Origin: Psychroflexus lacisalsi
GTDB taxonomy: Bacteria; Bacteroidota; Bacteroidia; Flavobacteriales; Flavobacteriaceae
Reading direction: 5' to 3'
DNA: 64,000 nucleotides
Assembly: GCF_020164495.1 (NCBI RefSeq)
Contig: NZ_JAIQYZ010000007.1
Location: 1 to 64,000, forward strand
The position numbers were made by a program, and so were the translations under genes. The notes under the pieces are model-generated. The model had not been told where the DNA came from, searched no databases, and saw only the letters and a program-made list of their open reading frames with translations. Each line of letters opens with the position of its first letter. The stretch's first letter is position 1. Positions 203 through 54,073 of the stretch are shown here, in pieces.

Positions 203-314
203 GTTGTACACATCTTCATGAAAAATCCGTATCATTGCTTCGCATGCGAGATATGCATTTTCATGTCTTAAATCTGTGGAGCGCTTTTCATCCCGAAAAG
301 CGCTTCCTTTTTTT
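203..314 (+). ncRNA. Candidate structured small RNA ending in an intrinsic terminator, copy 1
   Basis: The plus strand has a strong intrinsic terminator at 278-314: arms GGAGCGCTTTT and AAAAGCGCTTCC (one bulged base), then seven T. Upstream, CATGAAAA (217-224) can pair with TTTTCATG (about 258-265) to form a longer hairpin. The stretch 203-314 aligns by eye with 53969-54073: shared blocks are GTTG, CATCT, CATGAAAA, a CATTGC/CATTTGC block, CGCA, TTCATG, CTT and GGAG. Both copies lie between the start of a small-peptide gene and a twin palindrome and run opposite to the peptide gene. It could instead be a 5' leader of the peptide mRNA read on the minus strand; the T-run position favours the plus strand. 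No consensus promoter was found for it. Confidence 0.5.
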
Positions 315-419
315 CTAGTTAGAAGAACACTTTCATAGTTTATATTATTTGCTTCGAACTTAAAAAAAAAACAATATCGTATAAAATTAGACTGTTAAAT
401 TTTAAAATATCGCCAAGAT

Positions 420-457
420 TTACGGTTTTCCCGTAACACAATTACGGTTGAACCGTA
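420..457. promoter_or_regulatory. Twin palindrome operator, copy 1
   Basis: Two palindromes: TTACGGTTTTCCCGTAA (420-436) and TACGGTTGAACCGTA (443-457). Their centres (428 and 450) are 22 bp apart, two helical turns. The same pair, in opposite orientation, is at 54146-54183. Spaced TACGGTT half-sites 22 bp apart resemble the direct-repeat spacing of LytTR-family sites, but the regulator is unknown. The site is about 280 bp upstream of the peptide gene (minus) and 190 bp upstream of the metalloprotease (plus). The rest of 458-647 shows nothing recognisable. Confidence 0.6.
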
Positions 458-647
458 CTTTTTAGCAATAATTATAGAATTTCAATAAAGATTTAATAAT
501 TAGCAATAATGGTGAAGAATGATAATTTTGAAATAAAACTAATATAAAGAAGTTTATTAATAATTTTAAAGAGTACAATGTTAGGTATCTAGACATTTCA
601 ACTTCAGATTTTAATTTAAAAGCTACTATTTACATAAACTATCAATT

Positions 648-3587
648 ATGAATAAAAATTTTCTTCTCTTAGTTGTAATAATATCCCCGATTCTATTATT
701 CGGACAAGGAAAGAATTTTTGGGGGAAAACGACTATAAATTCCATATCTAAAAAGAATGTTATTGATTATGCTTCTAAAGCTGAAAATCCTGTTTATTTT
801 AATCTAGATAAAAAAATGCTTACAACTTATCTAGACAAAGCACCCGACCGATTTAAAGTTTCAAAATCATCTCTGCGTATAGACATACCTAATCCGGGTG
901 GAGAAATGGACACCTTTCAAATTTATTCCACACCAATCATGGCAGAAGGCTTGGCTGATAAATACCTTAATATCAAAAGTCTTGTTGGTTATAATATTAA
1001 AAACAAAGCCCATACCTTAAGTATTACTATAACACCTCAGGGTTTTTACGGTATGACTTTAGGCTCTGAATATGGGCAGACGCTTATTAATCCTTATGAT
1101 AAGAATGCTGATACCTATATTGTTTTTAGTAAAAAAGATGCAAGCCTAAAAGAGGGAAATTCCTTTGAGTGTTATGTTGATGAACTTACAAACGACAATG
1201 ACGCAGAAGAATTTTCTATTCAACCTAAATTTATAGAAGACGGGGTTTTAAGACGCTACCGACTTGCAGTTGCCTCAACTGTGGAATATTCTGATTATCA
1301 TCTCAATCAAGCGGGCATTACTTCAGGAAGCTCAAGCACAACAGCCAAAGCTACTGTTCAAGCGGCCATTGTAGTGAGTATTAATCGGGTGAATCAGATT
1401 TTTGAAAGAGATTTTGGGGTCACACTACAGTTAATTGACAATAATGATCAATTGATTTCTCTAGGTGATACAAATAATGATGGTTACACTAACAATGATT
1501 TATCTGAATTAATAAATGAAAATAAAATCCAAATTGATACTAAAATTGGTTTTGAAAATTATGATGTTGGACATGTTTTGTGTACCGAAGGCGGAGGTTT
1601 GGCACAAACACCTGCTGTTTGTCTTTCAGGTAAAGCTAGAGGTGTTACTGGCTTAAACACTCCTGTTGGAGAGTATTTTAATATTGGCTTACTATCTCAT
1701 GAACTCGGACATCAATTTGGCGCTAACCACACCCAAAGTAGTGATGTAAATGAAAATTTTGAAACAGCCGTGGAACCTGGTTCAGGGAGCACGATTATGA
1801 GTTATGCAGGTGTAGCACCTCCAAATGTTCAATTCCCAAGTGATGCTATGTTTCACTACATTAGTATTTCTGAAGTTAGTAATAGATTTATCACAACCAC
1901 TGGTAGTTGTGCAGAAACTGTTAGCATTGCTAACGAAGCACCTGTCATTCAAGCCGTCCCAAATTATAACATTCCAAAAAATACCCCTTTTAAATTAGAA
2001 GCCGTTGCAACCGATGCAAATGCTGATGTTCTAAGTTATAGTTGGGATCAAATAGATAATGATGTTGTGCCCAATGTCCCAATGCCACCAGAATCGACCT
2101 CTACATCAGGGCCAAGTTTTAGAACGTTTTTGCCTACCTTGAGTCCAACTCGCTATTTTCCTAATATGCCAACCCTTCTCGATAACCAATACTCGAATAC
2201 GTGGGAGGTTTTACCAACTGTGGCTCGAACTTTAAATTTTGGTGTTATCGTAAGAGATAACAATGCACTTGGTGGACAAGTAGCTCAAGAAAGCACAACC
2301 TTAACTGTTGATGATTCTGCTGGGCCTTTTAGAGTGACCTCTCAAAACACACTTGAAAATATTTGGGTTGCCAATTCTACCAAAACAGTAACTTGGGATG
2401 TCGCCAATACTGACAATGCTGCGGGCGTAAATACACAGAATGTTGACATATTACTCTCTACAGATGGTGGTTTATCTTTTAACACTGTATTGTTGACTAA
2501 TACCCCAAATGATGGAAGTGAAGATATAATAGTACCAGATGTTGTCTCGGAGAATTCAAGGCTGATGGTAAGAGCTTCTAACAATGTGTTTTTTGATATA
2601 AATTCACAGGCCTTTAGTATTAGCGTTGAATTCACTCCTGTTTATTGTGAGGCGGGTGCTTCTGATTTTGGATTCTCCAATATTGAACGCGTAGTATTGA
2701 ATTCGATTGATAATACCTCCCCAACCGATAATACTGGATATGCAGATTTTACCAATATTTCCACCAACCTATATACTGGAGATACTTATCCAATACAAGT
2801 AAGAGAAAAAAATAATTCAGTTTATGAAGGCGATCAAGTTATTGTATGGATTGATTTTAATAAAAATGGTGTCTTTACAGATTCTGGAGAAAAAGTAATT
2901 GAGACAGCTATTTTTAGTGAAGATTTTAGTATTTATCCATTTGGAGGAAATATTAATATTCCTAATGATGCCAAACTTGGTAAAACAACTATGCGAATAC
3001 GTATGAATAATGCAAATTTTGGGACTTCAAATACAACACCTTGTGGTAATTCTACATACGGTGAGGTTGAAGATTATTCTGTTCAAATCACCTCTACCTT
3101 CAACGTCTCTACATCAGCAAATCCTACGGTAGGTGGAAGTCCTGCAGGCGGAGGAAACATAGATTTTGGAGAGTCGGCAATGGTAATTGCAACTGCTAAT
3201 ACAGGTTACAGTTTTGTCAATTGGACCGAAGGTGGAACAGAAGTCTCAACCGATGCTATTTATACATTTACTGTAGAAAATAATCGAAATTTAGTAGCGA
3301 ATTTTGACGATTTCCTTAATGTTAGTGATTTTGAATCCAACTCATTCTATATCTACCCTAATCCATCTAGCTATGGACAATTAAATATTGAAGTTGACCA
3401 CTTAAAAAACCAAAAAGTGAGTCTTCAAATTTATGATATAATAGGGAAGCAGGTTTTAAATCAAAGGCCAAGAGTCAATTCTAATGGAATTATTCAAGTT
3501 GATGCTTCAAACTTAGCTTCAGGGGTGTATTTTGTGAAACTCAACCATAATAAAAAACAATTTGTAAGTAAATGGATAAAAAGATGA
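648..3587 (+). CDS. Secreted reprolysin-like zinc metalloprotease, T9SS cargo
   Basis: 979 aa. A signal peptide covers about residues 1-19. The zinc site HELGHQFGANH is at residues 351-361 (HExxHxxGxxH, metzincin), followed by a Met-turn region (STIMSYAG). The middle of the protein is Ig-like or beta-rich; a GEVED-type domain ends near residue 815 (YGEVEDY). Next is an InlB-B-repeat-like segment (about 820-890; SFVNWTEGG) and a T9SS type A sorting domain from about residue 900 (IYPNP, then GVYFVKL near the end). The family is known as secreted M12B-like peptidases of Bacteroidetes exported by the type IX system, so the enzyme is expected at the cell surface or outside the cell. The substrate is unknown. 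A terminator at 3631-3673 makes it a single-gene unit. Confidence 0.92.
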   Translation: MNKNFLLLVVIISPILLFGQGKNFWGKTTINSISKKNVIDYASKAENPVYFNLDKKMLTTYLDKAPDRFKVSKSSLRIDIPNPGGEMDTFQIYSTPIMAEGLADKYLNIKSLVGYNIKNKAHTLSITITPQGFYGMTLGSEYGQTLINPYDKNADTYIVFSKKDASLKEGNSFECYVDELTNDNDAEEFSIQPKFIEDGVLRRYRLAVASTVEYSDYHLNQAGITSGSSSTTAKATVQAAIVVSINRVNQIFERDFGVTLQLIDNNDQLISLGDTNNDGYTNNDLSELINENKIQIDTKIGFENYDVGHVLCTEGGGLAQTPAVCLSGKARGVTGLNTPVGEYFNIGLLSHELGHQFGANHTQSSDVNENFETAVEPGSGSTIMSYAGVAPPNVQFPSDAMFHYISISEVSNRFITTTGSCAETVSIANEAPVIQAVPNYNIPKNTPFKLEAVATDANADVLSYSWDQIDNDVVPNVPMPPESTSTSGPSFRTFLPTLSPTRYFPNMPTLLDNQYSNTWEVLPTVARTLNFGVIVRDNNALGGQVAQESTTLTVDDSAGPFRVTSQNTLENIWVANSTKTVTWDVANTDNAAGVNTQNVDILLSTDGGLSFNTVLLTNTPNDGSEDIIVPDVVSENSRLMVRASNNVFFDINSQAFSISVEFTPVYCEAGASDFGFSNIERVVLNSIDNTSPTDNTGYADFTNISTNLYTGDTYPIQVREKNNSVYEGDQVIVWIDFNKNGVFTDSGEKVIETAIFSEDFSIYPFGGNINIPNDAKLGKTTMRIRMNNANFGTSNTTPCGNSTYGEVEDYSVQITSTFNVSTSANPTVGGSPAGGGNIDFGESAMVIATANTGYSFVNWTEGGTEVSTDAIYTFTVENNRNLVANFDDFLNVSDFESNSFYIYPNPSSYGQLNIEVDHLKNQKVSLQIYDIIGKQVLNQRPRVNSNGIIQVDASNLASGVYFVKLNHNKKQFVSKWIKR

Positions 3588-3630
3588 TTCATTATAACAA
3601 CATCATATATTGATATTGTTTAATTGTTTT

Positions 3631-3673
3631 AAACGGAATATATAAATGCCAATTTCAGCATTCCGTTTTTTAT
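3631..3673 (+). terminator. Intrinsic terminator of the metalloprotease gene
   Basis: Arms AAACGGAAT (3631-3639) and ATTCCGTTT (3660-3668) close a 20-nt loop; the right arm runs into a T-tract. It begins 44 bp after the stop at 3587. Confidence 0.7.
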
Positions 3674-3708
3674 CCAAGATTTAAATTATGTATTGTAAAT
3701 CTAACATC

Positions 3709-4242
3709 ATGATATCAAAACATTTACTTATTGTTTTTGTATGTTCTCTTCTAATTTCGTCTTGTCAAACCAAAAAACAAGTAGCCGAATCCTCTCCACC
3801 ATCTTATAAGTTGGCCGACTATTGTCCAGAGGATGGTACTTGTACTTTTGAAGTCCTTACTCATAAATCCCTTGAAATGAAGAGTGATGGTATTGGTGCT
3901 TTATATCCCGTTGTAAAGAATGGTGATAAGACGGTTTTAAAATTTGAATACAAAAAAATTCAAGACCCCAAGCTTGCCGATGATGGCTACAAAGAAGTGA
4001 TTTATGCAAAAATCAATACCAAGCAAGATAATCTTCAACTAAAGAATGAAAAACTAAATTTGGCTAAAGTTTACTTTGGCCGCTTGTGTTTTTGTAAAGG
4101 TGAAAGCGGCTACTACCCAGTAAAACAAGGTAAACTAATGATTCAAAGACAAAGCGATTCAACGGTAACCTATAGTCTAAAATTTGAAATGGATAGAGTG
4201 CCACAAATTATTAAGGAGTTTTATACTACAGAGAAAATTTAA
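3709..4242 (+). CDS. Putative lipoprotein of unknown function
   Basis: 177 aa from the ATG at 3709. An upstream in-frame ATG at 3688 would add seven residues in front of the signal sequence, so 3709 is preferred. Residues 1-19 are a lipoprotein signal ending in a lipobox (LLISSC), so the protein is probably anchored in a membrane through that Cys. The mature part has further Cys residues (CPEDGTC and CFCKGESG). No family is recognised. It is a monocistron between the terminator at 3631 and a dyad at 4318, convergent with the symporter gene. Confidence 0.7.
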   Translation: MISKHLLIVFVCSLLISSCQTKKQVAESSPPSYKLADYCPEDGTCTFEVLTHKSLEMKSDGIGALYPVVKNGDKTVLKFEYKKIQDPKLADDGYKEVIYAKINTKQDNLQLKNEKLNLAKVYFGRLCFCKGESGYYPVKQGKLMIQRQSDSTVTYSLKFEMDRVPQIIKEFYTTEKI

Positions 4243-4317
4243 TTTTTTTGTTAAAAAATTGAATCTGAATTCTTCAGAAATCATCTCACTCCAGACGCTG
4301 CATTATTTTGAATATAA

Positions 4318-4354
4318 CTACAAACTTTATGTCGTAAAACATTAAAGTTTGTAG
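4318..4354. terminator. Dyad between convergent genes, possible bidirectional terminator
   Basis: CTACAAACTTTA (4318-4329) and TAAAGTTTGTAG (4343-4354) are perfect 12-bp arms around a 13-nt loop. It lies between the stops at 4242 (plus) and 4373 (minus). It is AT-rich without a clean T-run, so the terminator role is inferred from position. Confidence 0.45.
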
Positions 4355-4372
4355 TATCAAAATCAGAAAAAA

Positions 4373-5341
4373 TTACTCCCTAAATCTATTGGATAGTCGT
4401 GAAGCAACAAAGCTTATAAACAGAATTTGGAAGGCGTGAAAAATCATAAGTGGGAGAAGAACTAAGCCTACTGACATGGATTCTGGAAAAAGAACTTTTG
4501 AAAAAACAGTACCGTGAACCAGTGATTTCTTAGTGCCGCAAAACTGGGCGGTAATTTGGTCTTCCTTATTGAATTTTAAAACCCGGGAAAGGTAACCGGT
4601 GATAAAGTACACCACATAAAATAAGAGGATAGTGGCGATACCGATAAAAATTAAATCCCTGATTTTTACACTAGTGAATACCCCTTCATCAAACGACTCT
4701 ACAAAGCTTTTGTAGATAATCAACAGGATGATGGACTTGTCAAAAAGAGAAAGCTGCCTAGCGTACTTCTGAACAAATTTACCCAAATATTGCTGAAGTA
4801 TAAGTCCCAAAACGACGGGGAGCAAAATTTCAAGAAGTAACTTTAAATATATGCCTCCCAGGTTGTAGTCTACCCCCGATTCCTGAAGGAATAGACCGAT
4901 CCACAACGGAGTTAGTACAATTCCTATCAAGCCTGATATGCTAGCATTGAATATAGCTGCGGGAATGTTGCCTTTGGCCATGGACACCATCACCACCGAG
5001 GAAGAGACGGTGGATGGCAAAGCGGCAAGAAACAGAAAAGCCAGCCAAATCGTTTCTTGAGCGCCTTGCTCGATAAAGGGATAGAAACTGATGACAATAG
5101 CTGGAAATAAAAGGAATGTTGAGGATTGGACTAAAGCATGTAAGCGCCAGTTTTTTAAACCCGAAGTAATCTGATGTTTGCTCAATTTAAGACCATAAGA
5201 AAAGAAAATCAAGGAAATACCTAAACTGACTATAGTATCTAGCGGGATAGCATTCCCTTCCCGACCTAAGTCTGGAAAAAAATAAGCCAGCCCTATAACG
5301 AGGATGATGGAGAGGACGAAAGGATCTAATTTTATTTTCAT
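4373..5341 (-). CDS. Bile acid:sodium symporter family protein (SBF-like)
   Basis: 322 aa, almost entirely hydrophobic with about nine to ten membrane segments, the size and profile of the SBF-like (YfeH-type) branch of the bile acid:sodium symporter family. Typical stretches are the N-terminal FFSYGLKLSKHQ and the mid-protein LAALPSTVSSSVVMVSMAKGN, which matches the family's conserved polar stretch. The natural substrate of bacterial members is mostly unknown; organic anions are expected. The gene stands alone: the next gene on the same strand starts at 8172 and ends 192 bp upstream of this start. Confidence 0.85.
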   Translation of the reverse strand: MKIKLDPFVLSIILVIGLAYFFPDLGREGNAIPLDTIVSLGISLIFFSYGLKLSKHQITSGLKNWRLHALVQSSTFLLFPAIVISFYPFIEQGAQETIWLAFLFLAALPSTVSSSVVMVSMAKGNIPAAIFNASISGLIGIVLTPLWIGLFLQESGVDYNLGGIYLKLLLEILLPVVLGLILQQYLGKFVQKYARQLSLFDKSIILLIIYKSFVESFDEGVFTSVKIRDLIFIGIATILLFYVVYFITGYLSRVLKFNKEDQITAQFCGTKKSLVHGTVFSKVLFPESMSVGLVLLPLMIFHAFQILFISFVASRLSNRFRE

Positions 5342-5532
5342 CTTGCTAAGTTCGGCTTCCGGATTTGGTTGACTCCGTCAATCTATGTTCGTTTTTTCAA
5401 TAATACTCTTTTCTGTCTAGTTATGCTAAAGGAAAGTTTATGAGTAATATGGTTCTTGTAACTATGGAAGGTATCAAACCTTAAAGTATGATCCTTAAAT
5501 CTTGAAGGAAAACATTTAACCTTCAACGGATT

Positions 5533-8172
5533 TTAAAACAAAAACTTAAGACTCAACAGAAATTGTGAAGGACGCAATCGGTAAGTACTTTGCACGTAGG
5601 AAAAGTCGGTGTTTGAGACGCGTACAAATTCATCTGTATTCAGTGCATTATTCCAACTTGCATTCAGGTCTATGCCTACCTCTTCAAAGGTGTATTGGTA
5701 ATTAAAATTTAAAAAGTAATTGTTCTGGTTGTCTTCTGAAATGTTATTGTAATAGTATTCTGAATTGACACTGAAGTATTGATTATCTGCCACATAGAAG
5801 AACAGGTCTAATTGATGTTGCTGGGTTTGTATTTTATCAAAATTCCGCGCTTCAAAACGCGTTTGCAAAACACTATAATTTCCAGAATAACTGATGCTCA
5901 ACCAGTCGGTCACATCAGATTCCAGACCAAGATCAAACCCAAGATTTTGATTTTCTACATCGGCTAGATTTCCATTTAGGATTTGCTCCCGATTAGAAAT
6001 CGTAAAATTACTTCCTAGACTTAAAGTCGTCTTTAATTCTCTGAAATATTTACTGGTTTTGACTTTGATTCTATGAGAGTTTGAAAAATTGTCCTGCTCT
6101 ATCGCTTCGAAAATCGTGGCGGCATTGAGTCCGATTTGATTGCTGTACAGCAAATTGCGCTTTGTCTGATTAAAAGAATAGGAAAGATTCGCAAAAATGG
6201 ATTTTAATGGATTCCTAAACCGAAGTCGCCAGAAGTAATTCTGACTGAAGTTTTCTGGTAAAGGCGAATTGTACCGCTGAAGATTTCGATAATTGTTAAA
6301 AATAAATCCAAAATACAATTGTTGCATGTCGCCAAAATCATTGCTGAGATTGGCAGAAATACTGGTTTCCCAAAAGGCTGAAATTTTGTTTCTCACGTAC
6401 AAATTGGGTTCAAACGTGACGCGACTGAGGTTTTGATTTTCTTGTAATGAAGTATCCTGAATATCAAAACTTCTTAGATTAATGGGCGTGGTCAACCTCA
6501 CATTCCAATCTCCTTTTTTGTAAACAAATTTGCTGGTGGCATAAAAGTGAGTGCTTAAAAAATCAAGATTATTTTGAAAATCACCTCCTAAAGTTTCTGT
6601 TCTATCTGTATCAATAATCGTTATTTGACTCCCTAGCGACTGATTCTTAACCGAAACTCCCAACTCAGGAGATACCGTTACGCCTTGGATTCGCTTTGTA
6701 AATCCCGCCGTATTATCACTAAAAAAAGTATTGGTTTCTACGGTTTGTTGCAGTTCCTGGTATGCTTCGCCGTCATTTAATGAGGCTTCAAACTGGCCAG
6801 GGCTCACATTCAGGCTTTGGTTGGCTTCGGTATACCCCGTGTTGGACCTAAAGGTGACCACCTGCTTTCCTACAGGCTGCAAAAACCTCAATTTGTTACG
6901 AATCACAGAAAACGGATTGGAGAGCTGTTGCTGCACCTGAGTGTTCCCTGTGTTGATCGCTCCGCGTTGAGAATCCCAAAACCCATTTATCTCTAATTCG
7001 TTTTTTAAATAATTGTCACTTGTGTTTCGCTCCAAAATAAACTTGGATTGCAGTGTACTCCTAAATAAATCGTTGTTGGTGTTTTCCGTCAAATCGATAG
7101 TATCGGTAGGAGTGAAAAAACGGGTTTGGGTATTTCCGATTTGTTGTTGGGCGTCATTAAGGTAAGAAATGTTGGTTTTTAGATCCACATCTTTTTTAAG
7201 CCGAATCAAATAATTAGCCGAACCCAAATGCACATTATTATCCAACCAGCGTTCTTGTGAAAAAGGCGGTTCTGCAAGTTGCCTGATGGAGAGCCAATCG
7301 GTTTTGGAGGTGTTGAACTCTTCTCGACCAAAATCAGCGATAGAAAAATCCCTGATTTCTCTGGACACATCGCTCCCAGTGTTATTAGCTTGGTAAGTCA
7401 CAATGGCCTGGTTCTTTTTGGTAAACAGCATAGGTGTGATTTTAGCTTTCCACAGCAAAGGCGAAAATCCAGAACCGAGTTCGGCATTGCCGCTTACAGT
7501 CACTTCCTTTTTAAGTTTGATATTGAGCGAAGCGCGCTCAGAAAATTCCAGACTGTCCAACATTTTGATGGGTTGGTGATTTTCCAGAATTTGGACTTGC
7601 GACACATCTTTGGCAGCAATATTATTATTGGCCAAATTGTAGCGGCCTTCCAATAAATCCAAACCTTCTATATAGTATTTTTCAATCGGCTCACCTTGAT
7701 ACTTAATCTGGCCGCCTGGCATGACTTCTATGCCTGGCATTTTCTTGAGCACATCGGCAATAACTCTGTCTTTCTGGTCTGAAAATGCTGAGACCGAATA
7801 ATTGAGGGTGTCGCCTCTTTGTTCTATTTCTTTAGACTTTACCAGGACTTCCTTGAGTTCTTCTGAAGATGGCGACAGCTGGATATCGAGCTGTTGGTCT
7901 TTATTCTGAATGTGTTGCTGCCAGGTTGTATAACTTATATACGACACCTTCAGAAAAAGGGAATCTAACTCTGAATCCAGTTGGACTTTAAACTCACCAC
8001 TACCACTACTAATGCTATAAGCCAAAATAGTTCCTGTAGAATCTTTACTGACCATCACCGTTGCCCCACTTAGAACTTGATCATTTTCATCAAGCACTTT
8101 TCCTGTAAGATGGGATTGGGCATAGCCTGAAAAGGCAACTAAAGCTAACGCATAAAGACAGACTTTACTCAA
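5533..8172 (-). CDS. TonB-receptor-like outer-membrane barrel protein of the GLPGLI cassette 1
   Basis: 879 aa from a TTG start only 1 nt after the stop of the GLPGLI gene; the stop excludes an upstream start, and TTG gives a good signal peptide (ending GYAQS). Residues about 20-100 are a carboxypeptidase-like beta-sandwich (LTGKVLDENDQVLSGATV). Residues about 120-230 resemble a TonB plug (VLKKMPGIEV, YYIEGLDLL), and the rest is a long beta-barrel ending in aromatic residues (LSLKFLF). The partner barrel at 50146-52824 has the same layout. No TonB box is obvious, so it may be TonB-independent. Tight coupling to the GLPGLI gene indicates a joint function; the substrate is unknown, with the co-encoded peptide as a candidate. 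Confidence 0.85.
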   Translation of the reverse strand: MSKVCLYALALVAFSGYAQSHLTGKVLDENDQVLSGATVMVSKDSTGTILAYSISSGSGEFKVQLDSELDSLFLKVSYISYTTWQQHIQNKDQQLDIQLSPSSEELKEVLVKSKEIEQRGDTLNYSVSAFSDQKDRVIADVLKKMPGIEVMPGGQIKYQGEPIEKYYIEGLDLLEGRYNLANNNIAAKDVSQVQILENHQPIKMLDSLEFSERASLNIKLKKEVTVSGNAELGSGFSPLLWKAKITPMLFTKKNQAIVTYQANNTGSDVSREIRDFSIADFGREEFNTSKTDWLSIRQLAEPPFSQERWLDNNVHLGSANYLIRLKKDVDLKTNISYLNDAQQQIGNTQTRFFTPTDTIDLTENTNNDLFRSTLQSKFILERNTSDNYLKNELEINGFWDSQRGAINTGNTQVQQQLSNPFSVIRNKLRFLQPVGKQVVTFRSNTGYTEANQSLNVSPGQFEASLNDGEAYQELQQTVETNTFFSDNTAGFTKRIQGVTVSPELGVSVKNQSLGSQITIIDTDRTETLGGDFQNNLDFLSTHFYATSKFVYKKGDWNVRLTTPINLRSFDIQDTSLQENQNLSRVTFEPNLYVRNKISAFWETSISANLSNDFGDMQQLYFGFIFNNYRNLQRYNSPLPENFSQNYFWRLRFRNPLKSIFANLSYSFNQTKRNLLYSNQIGLNAATIFEAIEQDNFSNSHRIKVKTSKYFRELKTTLSLGSNFTISNREQILNGNLADVENQNLGFDLGLESDVTDWLSISYSGNYSVLQTRFEARNFDKIQTQQHQLDLFFYVADNQYFSVNSEYYYNNISEDNQNNYFLNFNYQYTFEEVGIDLNASWNNALNTDEFVRVSNTDFSYVQSTYRLRPSQFLLSLKFLF

Positions 8173-8173
8173 A

Positions 8174-18519: not shown

Positions 18520-18521
18520 AC

Positions 18522-45758: not shown

Positions 45759-45778
45759 ACTGAAATACTTTTAAAACT

Positions 45779-45807: not shown

Positions 45808-45809
45808 AT

Positions 45810-45817: not shown

Positions 45818-45833
45818 AAGTCAATTGATGTGT

Positions 45834-46811
45834 ATGACTCCTGCCTTTCCTTTTTCAATACAATCAGAAAAAGATTTTGAAACTATAGCTCTAAAGCTTT
45901 TTAAGGAACAAATTCAATATAATTCTGTTTATAAGGAGTTTTGTAGTTACTTAAACATCAATGAACAAAAGGTTCAAACCTTAAAGGAAATCCCTTTTTT
46001 ACCCATTGAATTCTTTAAGACTCACCAGGTCAAAACGAAAGAGTTCACTCCAGAAATGACTTTTTTGAGCAGTGGAACCACAGGGCAACAACAAAGTCGA
46101 CATTACGTTAAGGAACTCAAGGTTTATGAGGATAGCTTTATCCATACTTTTGAAAGAGCTTATGGTCCTATAGAAGACTATGTCATTTTAGGCCTACTAC
46201 CTTCCTACCTAGAAAGAGAAGGGTCTTCGTTGATCTATATGGTAGATCATTTTATAAAAAAAAGCAAATTTAAAGAGAGTGGCTTTTATTTAGATGAAAT
46301 AGAACAGCTTTCGGAAACACTTCAAAAACTAGACGATACTGGACATAACATATTACTTATAGGAGTTTCGTTTGCCCTATTAGATTTGGTTGAAAAGAAA
46401 AAATTTCGATTGAAGCATAGCATTGTGATGGAAACAGGGGGAATGAAAGGCAGGCGTAAGGAAATGATTCGTAAAGAACTTCATGCTATCCTTTCTAAAG
46501 GTTTTGGAATGAAAAATATTCACAGCGAATATGGAATGACAGAACTCCTGTCTCAAGCATATTCTAAAGGACAAAGCAAGTTCCAGTGTCCTGCTCATAT
46601 GAAAATCATGATAAGAGATACCGAAGATCCCTTTTGCTATCTCGGCCTTGGAAGCACAGGTGGAATTAATGTTATTGATCTGGCCAATTTCGACTCCTGT
46701 CCCTTTATCGCCACTCAAGATCTTGGCAAGCAAATCAATGCAACAGAATTTGAAATTTTAGGACGTTTTGATCAAAGTGATATTCGAGGTTGCAATTTGC
46801 TGGTTCTCTAA
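45834..46811 (+). CDS. LuxE-like acyl-protein synthetase / acyltransferase
   Basis: 325 aa from ATG 45834 (an alternative ATG is at 45828). The motif FLSSGTTGQQQSRH near residue 82 is the adenylate-forming SSGTTG loop; ILLIGVSFALLDLVEK, VMETGGMKGRR and HSEYGMTELLSQAYS match the LuxE family (acyl-protein synthetase component of luciferase fatty-acid reductase). The Lux proteins LuxC and LuxD are not encoded nearby. In non-luminous flavobacteria such solitary members are common; they probably activate an acyl or aromatic acid, with unknown substrate. Confidence 0.75.
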   Translation: MTPAFPFSIQSEKDFETIALKLFKEQIQYNSVYKEFCSYLNINEQKVQTLKEIPFLPIEFFKTHQVKTKEFTPEMTFLSSGTTGQQQSRHYVKELKVYEDSFIHTFERAYGPIEDYVILGLLPSYLEREGSSLIYMVDHFIKKSKFKESGFYLDEIEQLSETLQKLDDTGHNILLIGVSFALLDLVEKKKFRLKHSIVMETGGMKGRRKEMIRKELHAILSKGFGMKNIHSEYGMTELLSQAYSKGQSKFQCPAHMKIMIRDTEDPFCYLGLGSTGGINVIDLANFDSCPFIATQDLGKQINATEFEILGRFDQSDIRGCNLLVL

Positions 46812-46909
46812 TGAGATAAGATTTAGCTCTAAACTTTTCAACACGTTAATTTAAACCTAAGAAAACTTCTTATCTACTCAAAATCACAATCTAATATTTC
46901 AATAACTTG

Positions 46910-46933
46910 TATATTTGCATTTAGATTAAATCT
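46910..46933 (+). promoter_or_regulatory. -7 promoter box and palindrome before mrp
   Basis: TATATTTG (46910-46917) is a -7 box. The palindrome AGATTAAATCT (46923-46933) covers the expected transcription start, and the longer arms ATTTAGATT and AATCTTAAT match in 8 of 9 positions. A repressor of the Fe-S genes may bind; the TTTAG core recalls the sites at 20533 and 23727. Confidence 0.45.
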
Positions 46934-46953
46934 TAATAGAAGTAAATTGTTTT

Positions 46954-48093
46954 ATGAAATTGAATAAAGACGATATTAAAAAGGCTCTGATGACAATCAC
47001 TGTTGCTGGTGAAGGTCAAAATATGGTGGAAAGTGGTGCATTACAAAACATAGTCACTTTTGGCGATGAAGTGGTTGTAGATCTTAAACTTTCAACTCCT
47101 GCCTTACACATAAAAAAGCGTGCTGAAGTAGATATAATGAAAGCTATCCACGAGCACGTTTATGAAAAAGCGAAAGTTGAAGTAAAGATTACAGTTGAAG
47201 CTCCGGAGAAGAAAAACGTCAACGAAATTAAAGGGAAACCAATTCCCGGTATTCAAAATATTATAGCAGTTGCTTCTGGTAAAGGTGGTGTAGGAAAATC
47301 TACAGTCACTGCCAATCTAGCTGTTACCTTATCCAAATTAGGTTTTAAAGTTGGATTACTGGATGCTGATATTTATGGACCCTCTGGTCCAATCATGTTT
47401 GACGTAGCCAACGAAAAACCGCTATCGGTAACTAAAGATGGTAAATCCAAAATGAAACCCATTGAAAATTACGGAGTGAAGTTACTTTCCATTGGTTTTT
47501 TTACAAAACCAGACCAGGCTGTAATTTGGAGAGGACCTATGGCGGCTAAAGCTCTTAACCAAATGATTTTTGATGCAGATTGGGGTGAACTTGATTTTTT
47601 ATTGGTTGACTTACCTCCAGGCACAGGAGATATTCACTTATCGATCATGCAATCTATGCCAATCACCGGCGCATTAATAGTTAGTACCCCCCAAAATGTT
47701 GCACTAGCAGACGCCAAAAAAGCAGTATCTATGTTTCAACAGGAAAGCATAAACGTTCCAGTTCTCGGTATCTGTGAAAACATGGCTTACTTTACTCCTG
47801 ATGAGTTGCCAGATAATAAATATTACATTTTTGGAGAGAAAGGAGCTAAATATCTTTCAGAAGATTTGGGCGTTCCATTTTTAGGAGAAATTCCATTAGT
47901 GCAGAGTTTAAGAGAATCTGGTGATATAGGTCGCCCGGCTGCCTTGCAAGACGGAACTTTGCTAAGTGAATCCTTTGCAGAATTGACGAGAAACACTGTT
48001 CAAGAAGTGGTAAAAAGAAATAAAAACTTACCGCCTACCGAAGCTATAAAGATCACAACTATGGCAGGATGTAGTGCTGTAAAAAATAAGTAA
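46954..48093 (+). CDS. mrp: Mrp/NBP35-type iron-sulfur cluster carrier ATPase
   Basis: 379 aa. An N-terminal MIP18/DUF59-like domain (about 1-75) is followed by the P-loop ATPase domain (ASGKGGVGKSTVTANLAV near 107, LDADIYGPSGP, PPGTGDIHLS). Related carriers transfer Fe-S clusters to target proteins. The CxxC seen in many members after ENMAYF is absent here (ENMAYFTPDELPDNKYYI), so the cluster would be held differently. It is followed 2 bp later by nfu, with a reductase and ferredoxin further on. Confidence 0.93.
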   Translation: MKLNKDDIKKALMTITVAGEGQNMVESGALQNIVTFGDEVVVDLKLSTPALHIKKRAEVDIMKAIHEHVYEKAKVEVKITVEAPEKKNVNEIKGKPIPGIQNIIAVASGKGGVGKSTVTANLAVTLSKLGFKVGLLDADIYGPSGPIMFDVANEKPLSVTKDGKSKMKPIENYGVKLLSIGFFTKPDQAVIWRGPMAAKALNQMIFDADWGELDFLLVDLPPGTGDIHLSIMQSMPITGALIVSTPQNVALADAKKAVSMFQQESINVPVLGICENMAYFTPDELPDNKYYIFGEKGAKYLSEDLGVPFLGEIPLVQSLRESGDIGRPAALQDGTLLSESFAELTRNTVQEVVKRNKNLPPTEAIKITTMAGCSAVKNK

Positions 48094-48095
48094 TT

Positions 48096-48353
48096 ATGAT
48101 GACAGGTCAAGAATTAAGAAGAACAATAGAAGTAGCTTTAGATGAAATTCGTCCTTTCCTTAAAAGTGATGGTGGAGACATTGAGCTTATTTCTATTGAG
48201 GATGATTCACTTGTAAAAGTTCAATTGATGGGAACTTGTGTGGATTGTACTGTCAACCAGATGACATTGAAGTCTGGTGTGGAAATGACAATAAAAAAAC
48301 ATGCACCTCAAATCAAAGAGGTCATCAACATAAAAGCTAATCAAATAGCATAG
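48096..48353 (+). CDS. NifU C-terminal domain (Nfu-type) iron-sulfur scaffold
   Basis: 85 aa, just the NifU C-terminal domain: RPFLKSDGGDIELISIEDDSLVKVQ, then MGTCVDCTVNQMTLKSGVE with the CxxC cluster ligands. Nfu proteins build or carry 4Fe-4S clusters in the cytoplasm. It starts 2 bp after mrp, and the close coupling supports a joint role in Fe-S delivery. Two start codons are adjacent (ATGATG). Confidence 0.93.
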   Translation: MMTGQELRRTIEVALDEIRPFLKSDGGDIELISIEDDSLVKVQLMGTCVDCTVNQMTLKSGVEMTIKKHAPQIKEVINIKANQIA

Positions 48354-48386
48354 AATTTAAGTTAAAAACGTTTAGTAGATTTTGAT

Positions 48387-49448
48387 ATGATCAAAACAGA
48401 TATTTTAATTATTGGAGCGGGACCTACGGGGCTTTTTACCGTATTTGAAGCAGGATTATTAAAACTAAAATGTCACATTATAGATGCCTTACCTCAACCA
48501 GGGGGTCAACTTTCTGAATTATACCCTAAGAAACCTATCTACGATATTCCAGGTTTTCCAGAAGTTAAAGCCGGGCAACTTGTGGATAATTTAATGGAAC
48601 AAATCAAGTCCTTCCAACCAGGATTCACACTTGGAGAAAGAGCTCAAGATATAGAAAAGCAGGAAGATGGTAGCTTTATAGTAACTACAGATGAAGGTAC
48701 TAAACATCATGCTCCAATAGTAGCCATCGCAGGTGGGCTTGGAAGCTTTGAACCCAGAAAACCACCCATTAATAATATTTCAAAATTTGAAAATAAGGGG
48801 ATTCACTACATGGTAAAAGATCCAGAAAAATTTAGAGATAAATCGGTAGTCATCGCTGGAGGTGGAGATTCTGCGCTGGATTGGAGTATCTATCTTGCTG
48901 ATGTGGCTTCTGAAGTGACTTTAGTGCATAGACGAAATGAATTTAGAGGGGCGCTAGAATCTGTAGATCGAGTAAAAGAATTGAAAGATATTGGAAAAAT
49001 AAAATTGATTACTCCAGCTGAGATTGTCGATGTGAACGGTGAAGATCATTTAGAGTCAGTTTCCATCAGAAAAAACAACAATCCTGAAGAAGATTTTAGT
49101 TTAGAAACAGATTACTTTATTCCTCTTTTTGGATTATCACCAAAACTAGGACCAATAGCAGATTGGGGATTAGAGATAGAGAAAAATGCCATCAAAGTAG
49201 ATAATACCTTAGATTATCAAACCAACATTCCAGGCATTTATGCCATTGGTGATGTAAATACTTATCCTGGAAAATTAAAACTTATTTTGTGTGGTTTTCA
49301 TGAAGCTACTTTGATGTGTCAAAGTGCGTTTGCAAAAATCCATCCCAATAAGCGTAATGTCATGAAATACACTACAGTTGGCGGCGTTACTGGATTTGAT
49401 GGCACAAAAAAAGAAGCACCAAAATCTGTGATTAGAAGTATTGATTAA
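48387..49448 (+). CDS. Thioredoxin-reductase-like ferredoxin-NADP+ reductase
   Basis: 353 aa with an N-terminal FAD dinucleotide fold (ILIIGAGPTGLFTVFEAGLL), a second Rossmann fold for NAD(P)H (SVVIAGGGDSALDWSIYLAD near 153) and the C-terminal FAD motif (IPGIYAIGDVNTYPGKLKLI). The redox-active CxxC of thioredoxin reductases is missing, which with the length fits type 2 ferredoxin-NADP+ reductases. It would pass electrons between NADPH and the 2Fe-2S ferredoxin encoded 156 bp downstream. It starts 33 bp after nfu. Confidence 0.9.
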   Translation: MIKTDILIIGAGPTGLFTVFEAGLLKLKCHIIDALPQPGGQLSELYPKKPIYDIPGFPEVKAGQLVDNLMEQIKSFQPGFTLGERAQDIEKQEDGSFIVTTDEGTKHHAPIVAIAGGLGSFEPRKPPINNISKFENKGIHYMVKDPEKFRDKSVVIAGGGDSALDWSIYLADVASEVTLVHRRNEFRGALESVDRVKELKDIGKIKLITPAEIVDVNGEDHLESVSIRKNNNPEEDFSLETDYFIPLFGLSPKLGPIADWGLEIEKNAIKVDNTLDYQTNIPGIYAIGDVNTYPGKLKLILCGFHEATLMCQSAFAKIHPNKRNVMKYTTVGGVTGFDGTKKEAPKSVIRSID

Positions 49449-49481
49449 CCATTATAGTTATTTTATTACGATTAAATTTTC

Positions 49482-49515
49482 AAGACCTCACAGGTTTCAA
49501 AAACCTTTGAGGTCT
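49482..49515. repeat. Dispersed palindromic repeat, AAGACCTC type
   Basis: AAGACCTCACAGGTTT and AAACCTTTGAGGTCTT are near-perfect arms around a short loop. A related palindrome is at 54214-54252. It lies between the reductase and ferredoxin genes and may also act as a terminator (followed by AATTTT). Confidence 0.65.
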
Positions 49516-49604
49516 TAATTTTAAACTTCATTTAAAACTGATTGTGGTCACCTGAGAATCCCTTCAGATTAAATAGTTTTACCACTCTGAATATCGTTAC
49601 AACA

Positions 49605-49934
49605 ATGGATGTAAAAATTACAATTATAGATCGGGAAGGCACTTCACACGAAGTAGATGCACCTACAGACATGGCCATGAACTTAATGGAAGTGATTCGT
49701 TCTTATGAACTCGCGCCGGAAGGTACGATTGGCATTTGTGGCGGCATGGCGATGTGTGCGTCCTGCCAGTGTTACGTTCAATCTGAAACCGAACTCAGAG
49801 AAAAAGAAGACGATGAAGAAGCCATGCTTGCTGAAGCTTTTTATGTGGAAGACAACAGCCGCTTGAGCTGCCAGATTCCCATCACTAAAGATTTGGAAGG
49901 CTTGGTTGTTGAACTTGCTCCTAGTGAGGATTAG
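49605..49934 (+). CDS. 2Fe-2S ferredoxin (adrenodoxin type)
   Basis: 109 aa from ATG 49605; an ATG at 49542 would add a 21-residue tail with no resemblance to the family. Cluster ligands: GICGGMAMCASCQCYV gives CX5CX2C, and SRLSCQIP supplies the fourth Cys, as in adrenodoxin-type ferredoxins. MDVKITIIDREGTSHEVDAP is a normal start. It probably receives electrons from the reductase at 48387. The stop codon TAG is the first base triplet of the heptamer array at 49932. Confidence 0.92.
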   Translation: MDVKITIIDREGTSHEVDAPTDMAMNLMEVIRSYELAPEGTIGICGGMAMCASCQCYVQSETELREKEDDEEAMLAEAFYVEDNSRLSCQIPITKDLEGLVVELAPSED

Positions 49935-50028
49935 TCAGTAGTCAGTAGTCAGTAGTCAGTAGTCAGTAGTCAGTAGTCAGTAGTCAGTAGTCAGTAGTCA
50001 GTAGTCAGTAGTCAGTAGTCAGTAGTCA
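49932..50028. repeat. Heptanucleotide tandem repeat (TAGTCAG)n
   Basis: 13.9 units of TAGTCAG, without an error, from 49932 to 50028. The first unit includes the stop codon of the ferredoxin gene. The unit length is not a multiple of three, and every unit contains TAG. Nothing is coded within it. Confidence 0.97.
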
Positions 50029-50145
50029 AAATAATTTATTTGGATGAATTAAAGATAGTTGTCCGGAAAATTATAATCCATATTTTACCTAATGTTTAGA
50101 ATTACAGTTTCGTCTTATTTTTGAGAGGCTTTGAGAAACCGATAT

Positions 50146-52824
50146 TTAGAATCTATACAAAGCCTTCAATAAGACATACCTTGGCAGTAGCCTATAAGTA
50201 GTAGTTGTAGAACCAATATCACTAATATTGAAATTTCTAAACTGCCTAGTATTGAAAAGATTTTTTCCACTCAGTCCAAGCGTCCACTTGTCTTTTTTTA
50301 ATTTATACTGAGCTTCTAAATCGGCAAAATAATACACATTGTCCTGATTAATATTTCCGAATTCGTATCGCTCGGACTCCATCTGAATGTTGAACCTCTT
50401 GTTTAAAATAAAAGTTAAGTCCAAAAAACTTACATTATCTGTAAACGAATTTTGAATAGTTGTTCGTATCTCGTTATTAGTCCACTTAGTCCCCAAATGG
50501 TAGTTAAACCATCCTGTAAAACCAGAACGCAATTCCAGACCATAACCAATGGTAGTCGATTCTACTTGTCTAAGATCGGAATCATTCACAATATTTTTAA
50601 ATTCAGATTGACTGTAACTCAGGTCCAGTTTGATGTTGGAAGAAATGAACTTCAAGTAATAATCCACCTTTGTATTAATACTGATAAACTCTCTATCCTG
50701 GATCAAAATTTTGCTGGATTGAGTAAAGTTTTGATCAATAAATGTATTGGTACTAAAAAAATCATGATTCTGACTGTATAACACAAATGTGTTTGCGAAA
50801 AATCGACTACTCCAGTTCCCAAGTTCATAATTAAAAGTCAACGAGGTAGCATCTAATTGATTGAATTCGCCTGTTCCTCTATTAAAAGGCCTGAAACCTG
50901 TTAATACAAAATTTGAATATACATCTAATATTTTTGCATTGGTCCTATTGTAGGAGTAAGCAGAACGCAGTTTGTTTTTATCATTGATTTTCCAGTCTAA
51001 ACTCAAGATTGGGTTAATAAAAAAGGGAGATTCACTTTCTGAAGTATTGGCTATTTCAAGTCTATTGAACAATTGATGGAAATTAACCTGACCTATGATC
51101 GCAAAATCATTTATACTGTATCTGTACTTAGATTTTAGATACAAGTCGTTTACCGTGTAAGAGGTTTGGTTTTGGTAGCCATCGGGTCGATTTGAAACCA
51201 CATCATCCTCTAATAGCTCCAAACTAGTCTGCAAGTGATCTATCCTCAATTCATTCCACACTTGCACTTCGAATAAATCATCATTAGCCTTTCTATCCAA
51301 CAAATGTGCATTTACACCAATGTATTGCATTTTATTATTACTGATTTGTCTAACGTTGTCCGCAGATTGATTCGGGAATAAATCCTCGTAAAAGAATTGA
51401 TTCAATCGGTAAGTTTGTGGTGTCGTTTCGTCAATAAAACGACCAGTGAGCAGAAATACTTTTTTTTCCTTAAACTTATTGCTATAACTCAATTTTTGAT
51501 CAAACAACGTATTAGTATGCGACAAATCTTCTCGAGTAGAAATCCCATTGAAAAGTAAATTGGAATCATCATCAAAATTTCCACTGTTGTATTTGGTAGT
51601 GCTTTCCAACATTTCAGTTTTTGAAAAATCGTAGACAAAATCTAATTTTCCAAAGCCTACCAGTTTTCTATTTTTCAGCTGAAAATTTTCTGTATTCGTA
51701 AAATTGACATCATTTAGCGTCACATTTTGAACATTGGTTTGAAAGAAATCGGTTTCATCGGCATTAAAGAAACCTAAGGTTTTGATCTTAAGTTTTTCAG
51801 TAGGATTAAAAATAGCATTAAGAGAAACCAACTCAGCATTATTGAAATTTGTTCTTCGACGTTTAAAGTTAAGTTGTGGCGGAGCTAAGCTAACCAGGTC
51901 TCGCACCTGCTGATTGCCTCCTATGCTGGCAGGTTCATTATAACGTATTGGTCGAATCAACTGATTAATATCTCCGGTGGCATCGTAACCTGTGCTGTTG
52001 AAATTGGTCAGGAAGTAATATTTATTCTTTTTCCCAAAATTCATCAGATTGGTTTTTAGCTCATAAAACCCATCATTACCATGTCCTGCTTCTATATTTC
52101 CAAACCAAATGCGTTTGGATTTCTCATCGAGTTTGAGGTTAAGCGCTACTTTTTCGCTGTCTTCCACCCCTTTTAATAAGCGGTTGTTGGAATAGTTTTT
52201 TAATACTTCTACTTCTTCTATAGGATACGCAGGCATATTTTTAGAAAGCAGTTTATAGCCTCGTTCAAAAAGATCATCTCCATCAACCATCAACTTTTCG
52301 ATTTCTTGATTACCCACTTTTATCGTGCCTTCACTGTCTATTTGTAATCCTGGGATTCTACGCAATAAATCTTCTACGGTTTGCTCTGTTCCATCCGTGA
52401 AATATTTGGATTTGAAAGTAATAGTATCGTTTTGAACTCTTATGGGTCGCTCAGCTAGAATGATAACTTCGTCTAAATCCATAGACTTTTCTATTAAAAT
52501 TACATCGATTTCAAGATTGTCTTGATTTGGACTAATGACTATAGGGACTGTTTTGGATTGATACCCAAGTGAGGCGAATAGCATATTAAACTTGCCAGAT
52601 TTATTTATTTTTAGCTGGTAATTACCGTCATTATCGGAATAGGTATATTCTATGATAAATTTTGACAAACTGTCTTTTAAGATAACGCTTACGGAAAACA
52701 CATTATCTTTTTCATCTTTAACCGAACCAGAAATAACAATTTGCGAAAAACATAAAATCTGAAATAAAAAGATAATAACTATTGTTAGACTAAAGTCTAA
52801 TCTTCTTTTATTTCTTCTTCCCAT
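50146..52824 (-). CDS. TonB-receptor-like outer-membrane barrel protein of the GLPGLI cassette 2
   Basis: 892 aa with a signal peptide (hydrophobic 10-28, ending CFSQI). A carboxypeptidase-like domain (about 30-110; ISGSVKDEKDNVFSVSVILKD), a plug-like domain (about 125-235; DLLRRIPGLQIDSEGTIKVG, LMVDGDDLFERGY, VALNLKLDEKSKRIWFG) and a long barrel ending LKALYRF follow. The layout equals that of the barrel at 5533-8172, and both are expressed after a GLPGLI gene. Its start overlaps the 3' end of the GLPGLI gene by 28 bp, so translation is probably coupled. Substrate unknown; the co-encoded peptide or its processed form is a candidate. Confidence 0.87.
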   Translation of the reverse strand: MGRRNKRRLDFSLTIVIIFLFQILCFSQIVISGSVKDEKDNVFSVSVILKDSLSKFIIEYTYSDNDGNYQLKINKSGKFNMLFASLGYQSKTVPIVISPNQDNLEIDVILIEKSMDLDEVIILAERPIRVQNDTITFKSKYFTDGTEQTVEDLLRRIPGLQIDSEGTIKVGNQEIEKLMVDGDDLFERGYKLLSKNMPAYPIEEVEVLKNYSNNRLLKGVEDSEKVALNLKLDEKSKRIWFGNIEAGHGNDGFYELKTNLMNFGKKNKYYFLTNFNSTGYDATGDINQLIRPIRYNEPASIGGNQQVRDLVSLAPPQLNFKRRRTNFNNAELVSLNAIFNPTEKLKIKTLGFFNADETDFFQTNVQNVTLNDVNFTNTENFQLKNRKLVGFGKLDFVYDFSKTEMLESTTKYNSGNFDDDSNLLFNGISTREDLSHTNTLFDQKLSYSNKFKEKKVFLLTGRFIDETTPQTYRLNQFFYEDLFPNQSADNVRQISNNKMQYIGVNAHLLDRKANDDLFEVQVWNELRIDHLQTSLELLEDDVVSNRPDGYQNQTSYTVNDLYLKSKYRYSINDFAIIGQVNFHQLFNRLEIANTSESESPFFINPILSLDWKINDKNKLRSAYSYNRTNAKILDVYSNFVLTGFRPFNRGTGEFNQLDATSLTFNYELGNWSSRFFANTFVLYSQNHDFFSTNTFIDQNFTQSSKILIQDREFISINTKVDYYLKFISSNIKLDLSYSQSEFKNIVNDSDLRQVESTTIGYGLELRSGFTGWFNYHLGTKWTNNEIRTTIQNSFTDNVSFLDLTFILNKRFNIQMESERYEFGNINQDNVYYFADLEAQYKLKKDKWTLGLSGKNLFNTRQFRNFNISDIGSTTTTYRLLPRYVLLKALYRF

Positions 52825-53600
52825 TCAAATTTGATTTCAATACCCTTTCTTACATTAGCATCAGAAGATACTGATATTAATTTAATTCCTTTGGGCAATT
52901 TTGATTGGAGCATAGTTTGTTTTTCTGTTACTGATTGATACCTTACTTCTTCGTAATACTCTTTCGCACTCATTAAGGGTTTTAATTCGTCATTTTTTTC
53001 AAATTGAGGTTTCTCTGCATTCACCTTATAAGAAGCTAATGTCCAAATAAATGTACCAGTATCATCACTAATTTTCGCAATAAGACCTGGCAAACCGTGA
53101 AATTTATAGGGTCCATATCCTATAGGGATTTCTATGGCGTACCAAGCAGTATAATTTCTGCCCCTAAAATATGTAGTTGCTTTTTTGCATAATAGAGTGC
53201 CTATTTTCTTTTCCTCTGAATAATTCAAATTCCAATTAAAATCATAGATTGTATCTCTTACATAATAAATATTATTCCTATGAGTTTCTTTAGAAAAAAT
53301 GTATTCCTTGTTAAAATTGATTTCGATAAAGCTCTCTATATCATCATATTTAATGTTATAAGTCAATCCGTAATGGGTTGATGTCATTGCAGAATTAGAT
53401 TCAGTACTACTATTATTATTTTTACTTATATGAAATATAGTAAGATTCTTTTCTACGTCAATTTGTAATTGGCCTTTTCTTATTTGTGGAAAATCGGTAT
53501 TGTAATAAATATCATATTTAGCTTCAAAATAAGGTGTTTTTTGACCGAATAAAGACGCCGTAATAAATAGCAACAATACATTTAAAAATATTTTTAGCAT
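52797..53600 (-). CDS. GLPGLI family protein, cassette 2
   Basis: 267 aa with a signal peptide (about 1-19, ending SLFGQ). The signature YKFHGLPGLIAKISDDTG is near residue 170, preceded by AWYAIEIPIGYGP. The C-terminus (KFEWEEEIKED) is unlike the NNPIELE end of the two copies in cassette 1, so this copy is more distant. It lies directly after the hairpin that follows the small peptide gene: its ATG is 8 bp from the A-run of the hairpin (53609-53616). Family function unknown; exported to the periplasm. Confidence 0.92.
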   Translation of the reverse strand: MLKIFLNVLLLFITASLFGQKTPYFEAKYDIYYNTDFPQIRKGQLQIDVEKNLTIFHISKNNNSSTESNSAMTSTHYGLTYNIKYDDIESFIEINFNKEYIFSKETHRNNIYYVRDTIYDFNWNLNYSEEKKIGTLLCKKATTYFRGRNYTAWYAIEIPIGYGPYKFHGLPGLIAKISDDTGTFIWTLASYKVNAEKPQFEKNDELKPLMSAKEYYEEVRYQSVTEKQTMLQSKLPKGIKLISVSSDANVRKGIEIKFEWEEEIKED

Positions 53601-53608
53601 GAGTTTTT

Positions 53609-53649
53609 AAAAAAAACCCTAGGTGGTAATTAAATAAACACCTAAGGTT
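53609..53649 (-). terminator. Intercistronic terminator-like hairpin, cassette 2
   Basis: On the minus strand AACCTTAGGTG, a 13-nt loop, CACCTAGGGTT and then eight T. Ten of eleven pairs match. It begins 10 bp after the peptide stop (53659) and ends 8 bp before the GLPGLI start codon. It should act as an intrinsic terminator and also cover the region where the next ribosome would land. Confidence 0.75.
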
Positions 53650-53658
53650 AAGTTATTG

Positions 53659-53895
53659 TTATCGGTTGTGTGCAGCAATTACCATCTGAGCAGAATTGTA
53701 ACAATCTTGAGCTGTTGATGTTTCATATTGATATGTATAAGTACTAGTAGTTCCATCGCTATTTTGTTCAACAATAGTAACTGTACAAATACCAAAATCT
53801 TCATCAATATTATTAGAAGGAACATTATCAAATGTGTTTGCAAAAGCAAAAGTTCCTACTAGCATAAAAGCTAGTGCAAAAAATAAATTTTTCAT
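53659..53895 (-). CDS. Small secreted Cys-containing peptide, cassette 2
   Basis: 78 aa. Signal peptide residues 1-19 (MKNLFFALAFMLVGTFAFA). The mature part of about 59 residues has two Cys (FGICTVTIV and QDCYNSAQ), a Thr/Tyr-rich middle (GTTSTYTYQYETS) and ends IAAHNR. No family is recognised. It is the first gene of the cassette, followed by the hairpin, the GLPGLI gene and the barrel gene. The size, signal, Cys residues and the D-C-x3-A block link it to the peptides at 1-139 and 9039-9257, although the sequences differ widely. Confidence 0.8.
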   Translation of the reverse strand: MKNLFFALAFMLVGTFAFANTFDNVPSNNIDEDFGICTVTIVEQNSDGTTSTYTYQYETSTAQDCYNSAQMVIAAHNR

Positions 53896-53968
53896 TTTAA
53901 TACATTTTAAATAATTATTGGTGGTAATTTTTATTCTTACCGGATTTTTTATACTTCTTAATTTAGAA

Positions 53969-54073
53969 GTTGCTCATCTCATGAAAACCAATACATTTGC
54001 AACGCACAGTGAAGTGTATGTATTCATGCCTTTACGGGAGAAGCTTCTACCTTGTAGGAGCTTTCTCTTTTTT
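53969..54073 (+). ncRNA. Candidate structured small RNA ending in an intrinsic terminator, copy 2
   Basis: Plus strand. A terminator at 54038-54073: GAGAAGCT with inner CTAC, GTAG, then AGCTTTCTC and six T. Upstream, AATACAT (about 53989-53995) pairs with ATGTATT (54018-54024) inside CATG arms. The element aligns with 203-314 (see that entry). The gene at 53895 is 73 bp from its 5' side and the twin palindrome is 72 bp from its 3' side, nearly as in copy 1. Covariation between the two copies in the terminator stem (different bases, same pairing) supports an RNA structure. Confidence 0.5.

Follow-up and report, generated by a model that had tools for sequence, protein, structure and literature searches.

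The 64,000-nucleotide (nt) stretch of Psychroflexus lacisalsi DNA analyzed here (contig NZ_JAIQYZ010000007.1, positions 1 to 64,000; hereafter the window) carries two copies of an element predicted to fold as a structured RNA, each lying between a twin palindrome and the start of a small peptide gene on the opposite strand. An earlier reading made from the letters alone (the sequence-only reading) had proposed that the two elements are homologous, and this was borne out: one covariance model, R1, whose training alignment took in both window copies, matches copy 1 (type E1) at 166 bits (E-value 2e-26) and copy 2 (type E2) at 86 bits (E 1e-12) in a window search in which the next-best match has E 0.5; a wider model, R2, gives 140 and 109 bits; and intermediate copies in other genomes bridge the two types. 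That reading was right about the existence of the elements but not about their extent of ~105 nt: covarying hairpins reach 5′ to ~170 and ~53930, so that its 5′ limits fell 33 nt (copy 1) and 39 nt (copy 2) too short. The copies share one orientation, and each ends, as had been noticed, in an intrinsic terminator, a GC-rich stem followed by 6–7 T. Their terminator stems are unlike in sequence and both pair well; on the plus strand the copies fold with z −4.35 (copy 1, 200–316) and −3.95 (copy 2, 53960–54075), as compared to −3.44 and −0.68 on the minus strand. The palindromes and the small-peptide starts are likewise real, the peptide beside copy 1 (start at 139) being cut by the contig end and that beside copy 2 complete.

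The sequence-only reading had also suggested a covariance model and a genome search, and these yielded further copies in Psychroflexus, with covariation. With copy 1 as the query of a DNA search, nine of 60 relatives, a set that includes its own genome, gave matches. R1, built from a 22-copy alignment that includes the E2 type, found copies in 15 of the 27 genus genomes, with seven in the window's own genome (G000, 3.04 Mb), and R2, built from 50 copies, found at least one copy in 16 of the 27. These 50 copies, analyzed below, are all matches at E ≤0.05 in 61 searched loci, all from Psychroflexus; three further R2 places in the genus were left out of the set. Among 299 (R1) and 397 (R2) genomes of the family, searched under stricter filters that may lose weak matches, all matches fall in Psychroflexus and none in relatives outside the genus. 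A locus in a Winogradskyella metagenome-assembled genome (L152) has a weak match at the expected place (R1, 22.6 bits, E 0.12; R2, 27 bits, E 0.02) and a terminator that by eye resembles that of the element, which is no more than suggestive. A match at L140 (E 0.005) was not counted: it covers a single hairpin and the opposite strand scores too.

Alignment of the copies supports four hairpins, the last of which is the intrinsic terminator. In the 50-copy alignment, which was fitted to the model and hence leans toward its structure, 88.7% of cells pair, and both sides have changed in 30 of the 40 pairs (269 double-sided cells, as compared to 87.3 in shuffles, standard deviation 9.2, with 0 of 500 reaching 269, and 58 in the best slid control). 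An unfitted 22-copy alignment gives 12 pairs and 35 double-sided cells, against 6.8 and 12.8 in shuffles. Because wobble pairs are legal on one strand only, they provide a test of strand: the plus-strand consensus structure contains 119 G-U versus 18 A-C cells, and even in a structure predicted for the minus strand 45 cells wobble on the plus strand and 30 on the minus. A held-out set of 26 copies outside the R1 set, freely realigned with two near-duplicates dropped, and not wholly independent since its members were found with R1, repeats the asymmetry (102 G-U versus 23 A-C), with a consensus fold of −36.4 kcal/mol on the plus strand and −24.7 on the minus, a difference of 11.7 in favor of plus.

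Individual copies point the same way, the plus strand folding better in 45 of the 50. A run of at least four T stands at the plus-strand 3′ end in 48, and the terminator stem covaries. At L113:6361 and L111:4663 (genomes G009 and G012), which are identical there, the usual terminator has been swapped for another hairpin with its own T-run. Judged by these comparisons, the structured strand is the plus strand. A small protein gene on this strand was considered and rejected for lack of a conserved open frame: in the 47 copies that have the conserved ATG, the frame it opens is anywhere between 3 and 36 codons long, as a protein gene would not be. In two loci (L110:3532-3705 and L117:3261-3432) an inserted stretch interrupts the element terminator.

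The element is tied to small peptide genes in most copies. An opposite-strand open reading frame (ORF) of at least 40 codons starts within 130 nt of 45 of the 50 copies, and in 41 the start lies 20–42 nt off (28–36 nt in 34 of them). Thirty-two of these 41 ORFs encode peptides of 55–99 amino acids, with two cysteines in 26 and four in 6, most bearing a signal-like N-terminus as judged by eye rather than by a signal predictor; six others of the 41 are larger and lipoprotein-like by eye (L060, L061, L120, L107:8228, L104:3124 and L117). The next ORF bears a GLPGL motif in 29 of the 50 copies, and three tested proteins score as the GLPGLI family (TIGR01200), which Pfam lists as of unknown function. 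Arrays such as those at L008, L047 and L048 repeat element, peptide and GLPGLI gene as several cassettes, and some peptide–GLPGLI pairs in them have no element. Over nine cassettes from two genomes, mean identity is 90% in the element, 84% in the signal region and 61% in the following 120 nt. No ORF of 40 codons lies within 130 nt at L110, L112 or L118; the last two keep element and terminator and fold much better on the plus strand (−40.6 versus −26.9 kcal/mol at L112, −31.9 versus −22.6 at L118). A fuller homologue of the truncated window peptide is found at L048:3814-4008. Together, covariation, the G-U/A-C asymmetry, the direction of the T-run and the peptide-gene context agree with the earlier proposal of a plus-strand small RNA (sRNA) family associated with peptide genes.

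Table 1. Positions of the two elements and of neighboring features in the window
Feature	Position	Strand	Evidence
Element copy 1, type E1; predicted four-hairpin structured RNA, terminator last	170..315	+	R1/R2 matches, fold
Element copy 2, type E2	53930..54073	+	R1/R2 matches, fold
Intrinsic terminator (stem and T-run) of copy 1	278..314	+	sequence, fold
Intrinsic terminator of copy 2	54037..54073	+	sequence, fold
Small peptide gene, signal-like N-terminus, truncated where the contig ends (window position 1); probable antisense target of copy 1	1..139	-	
Two-cysteine peptide, 78 amino acids, signal-like N-terminus, complete; probable antisense target of copy 2	53659..53895	-	
GLPGLI family member (TIGR01200), encoded codirectionally with the peptide	52797..53600	-	E 1e-34
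Large protein that has a CarboxypepD_reg-like domain and by eye resembles an outer-membrane receptor	50146..52824	-	
Twin palindrome; likely operator through which the response regulator acts on the leftward peptide transcript	421..457	.	pattern search, regulator co-occurrence
Twin palindrome, same likely operator role	54146..54182	.	pattern search
TATGTTTA, candidate -7 promoter box of the peptide messenger RNA, 22 bp from the palindrome	54116..54123	-	

The twin palindrome has the pattern TACGGN5CCGTA-N7-TACGGN5CCGTA, which occurs at five sites in the whole genome; the reversed pattern, run as a control, occurs at none. Among 119 relatives searched, the palindrome was found in 10 of the 27 genus genomes, exactly the ten with an orthologue (67–100% identical) of a response regulator whose gene, together with that of a TPR histidine kinase, follows such a palindrome (Fisher p 1.2e-7, not corrected for kinship); two further genus genomes have regulators only 35% identical. 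The regulator has a receiver domain by Pfam and is likely NarL/LuxR-like, from NCBIfam matches to NarL- and RcsB-type models that are all below cut-off. In other genera, a similar kinase–regulator pair stands, by eye, beside the palindrome at 8 of 17 annotated non-Psychroflexus loci. The flavobacterial sigma-A signal is described as TAnnTTTG (PMC9723704). Of 59 palindrome sites, a set that lacks up to seven loci unless another locus covers them and in which four sites come from unrelated bacteria (two in L166, one each in L167 and L170), 29 have a TAnnTTT box at a distance of exactly 22 bp, and no other offset exceeds 4. Such a box on the palindrome flank would put the element inside the leader of the peptide messenger RNA (mRNA) at many twin-palindrome sites, as these counts support. 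At the second window locus it gives a predicted mRNA start at ~54111 and hence a leader that would contain the whole element; the first window locus has no TAnnTTT box at this offset.

Elements and palindromes are separable. Within 300 nt upstream of the 50 elements (in the mRNA sense), 10 have an exact twin palindrome, 13 a single one and 27 none, at spacings of 59–73 nt in 11 copies and 103–117 nt in 12. Eight of the 16 element genomes have the regulator and eight lack a close orthologue (association p 0.12), indicating that the element is more than a component of the operator. The element tracks the peptide genes and the palindrome tracks the regulator.

We consider the elements to be best explained, with a probability of about 0.62, as multi-copy cis-antisense sRNAs nested in the leaders of peptide mRNAs. 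Each element would give rise to a small RNA of ~145 nt whose transcription runs away from the peptide gene and stops at the element's own intrinsic terminator; the sRNA gene would be nested in the 5′ leader of the oppositely transcribed peptide mRNA. This plus-strand RNA would be fully complementary to the leader from ~30 nt before the start codon, and pairing would lower the translation or stability of the peptide–GLPGLI mRNA. Pairing may occur in cis and, because copies of one type are ~90% identical, also in trans with the leaders of sister cassettes of that type. In the ten genomes that carry it, the NarL/LuxR-like regulator probably turns on the peptide mRNA by way of the twin palindrome, in which case the RNA would impose a threshold or reduce leakage. 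Comparison supports a selected, structured plus-strand RNA with a terminator, placed ~30 nt before a peptide start codon; its transcription, pairing with the leader and repression are what we infer from this arrangement. Consistent with a cis-antisense RNA, the element lies opposite a leader or gene start in the 41 copies described above, the mRNA start itself being predicted, and has its own terminator (T-run in 48 of 50 and a covarying stem), which gives a predicted RNA end.

Several observations weigh against this interpretation. Its weakest point is the absence of a promoter excess on the plus strand: the highest sigma-A-like scores found upstream of the 50 copies equal those of shuffled sequence (9.84 versus 9.80). 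Pair types, counted on the free 22-copy alignment, are no more numerous than in shuffles (285 of 500). Moreover, five of the 50 copies lack a better plus-strand fold: L048:7432 and L116 miss it by 0.1–0.2 kcal/mol, L110 and L117, with their interrupted terminators, are worse by 1.5–3 kcal/mol, and L125 is worse by 3.9 kcal/mol. Finally, a translational leader would be just as compatible with so narrow a range of distances to the start codon.

This last point belongs to the strongest rival, which we regard as a real but rather doubtful contender: the functional RNA would be the 5′ leader of the peptide mRNA itself, on the minus strand, with hairpins acting in cis on translation or stability or in ligand sensing, and the plus-strand T-run would be incidental. 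Such a leader would account for the near-constant distances to the start codon (28–36 nt in 34 of 50) and to the palindrome in its two spacing classes, for the promoter box at offset 22 that puts the element in the mRNA, for the folding of the minus strand at copy 1 and for a plus-strand promoter score not above chance. By contrast, the wobble asymmetry favors the plus strand even on the minus-strand structure, the minus strand of copy 2 folds like shuffles, the T-run stands at the plus-strand 3′ end in 48 of the 50 copies, and the terminator replaced in G009 and G012 was replaced by another terminator.

It appears improbable that the elements form a family of trans-acting sRNAs whose main targets lie elsewhere, adjacency to peptide genes being a product of cassette duplication; structure is kept at L112 and L118 where no ORF is near, and the apical and 5′ segments are conserved, but the link to peptide starts (41 of 50) is strong. 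The arrays led us to consider a role at the level of DNA, in which the element would be a foldable, attC-like site of recombination or a repeat by which peptide cassettes are shuffled; this is very improbable: elements are more alike than the regions after the signal peptide (90% versus 61%), assemblies break in such repeats, and a tyrosine recombinase broken into three ORFs lies right behind an array on contig C34 of the window's genome (L047:8443-9280, minus strand), but terminators with T-runs and changed yet pairing stems fit RNA, and among eight genomes searched a phage-integrase domain lies beside an array only in G000, as this broken gene; the other seven have none on the array contigs out to 90 kb from the arrays. 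By eye, window positions 1 to ~130 repeat, on the other strand, the last ~127 bases of L008, the end of a 4.2-kb contig (C3); the assembly breaks within a repeated peptide gene.

Rfam 15, which includes the Flavo-1 motif put forward for comparison by the sequence-only reading, has no match to the window at gathering score, and identity of the element with a known Rfam family was rejected. Relaxed E-value searches returned five and three matches near the two elements, all far below the gathering scores of their families, and Flavo-1 (RF01705) and 6S-Flavo (RF01685) gave none in the element regions at E up to 5. Six further loci yielded only 6S-Flavo RNA and tRNA, both away from the element; the 6S-Flavo hit, elsewhere in L118, indicates that the search works. 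Flavo-1 and 6S-Flavo, like the element, are structured RNAs of Bacteroidota (PMC2864571), but neither model matches it. Our literature searches found no description of the element RNA.

Two antisense systems of the phylum resemble it by description. The DonS RNAs of Bacteroides are described as cis-antisense sRNAs of 78–128 nt in polysaccharide utilization loci, divergent to susC homologues of outer-membrane uptake operons and with a negative effect on them (PMC7366714). The element would work in a similar way, from a cis-antisense position opposite operon genes; unlike DonS, it is ~145 nt long, lies opposite leaders of secreted-peptide/GLPGLI operons, has four covarying hairpins and comes in many paralogues. 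The asSuGR RNA of Porphyromonas gingivalis (550 nt) is reported to be linked to the response regulator PG0720, to sit in a repeated element and to act in trans, the regulator driving the antisense RNA and more antisense RNA going with more sense mRNA (PMC8757827). It too is a Bacteroidota antisense RNA with a response-regulator link, but it is longer, and at the element loci the likely operator faces the mRNA side.

A likely regulator, a likely operator and coherent neighbors, namely small secreted-type peptides and GLPGLI proteins, accompany the element family, so that cultured Psychroflexus species offer a way to test both the element RNA and what GLPGLI proteins do. To our knowledge, it is unusual for an antisense RNA to be structured and covarying and to have many paralogues. 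A more speculative view, which we hold possible though well short of likely, is that these dispersed RNAs travel with hypervariable two-cysteine peptide/GLPGLI cassettes, that the RNA of one cassette silences the leaders of its sisters, and that a dedicated two-component system overrides this through twin-palindrome operators, in what would be an undescribed form of regulated antagonism or signaling.

The palindromes have further associations. Eight twin palindromes, chosen by eye for a common start (L001:1390-1500 on the minus strand, L010, L015, L020, L022, L025, L127 and L129), share a conserved flank with a core near AATTTCATCTGATTTTGAGACCGTTCCAA that ends in a varying but pairing terminator; this flank probably encodes a second, regulator-driven sRNA of about 85–100 nt. 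Its 42-nt core paired with five targets (both leaders, both elements and the two-component mRNA) no better than mononucleotide-shuffled cores. The two-component operon (L007:5817-8714; L060:9256-12832) starts with a lipoprotein-like peptide of 59 amino acids, present in four tandem copies in G024, which is possibly a signal or sensor peptide of the system.

In L006, L064 and L066 a long protease-like gene carries the palindrome at its 3′ end; the L006 gene has DUF5117/DUF4953 domains. Palindrome-linked genes at L060:6616-7482, L110 and L152:2031-2978 encode proteins with glycine-rich hydrophobic C-termini, followed by membrane proteins of ~60–70 amino acids; the pairs look bacteriocin- and immunity-like by eye, and L060:6616-7482 and L152:2031-2771 have no Pfam or NCBIfam match. 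A tandem array of a short ACGACTC-type unit occupies L001:1090-1180.

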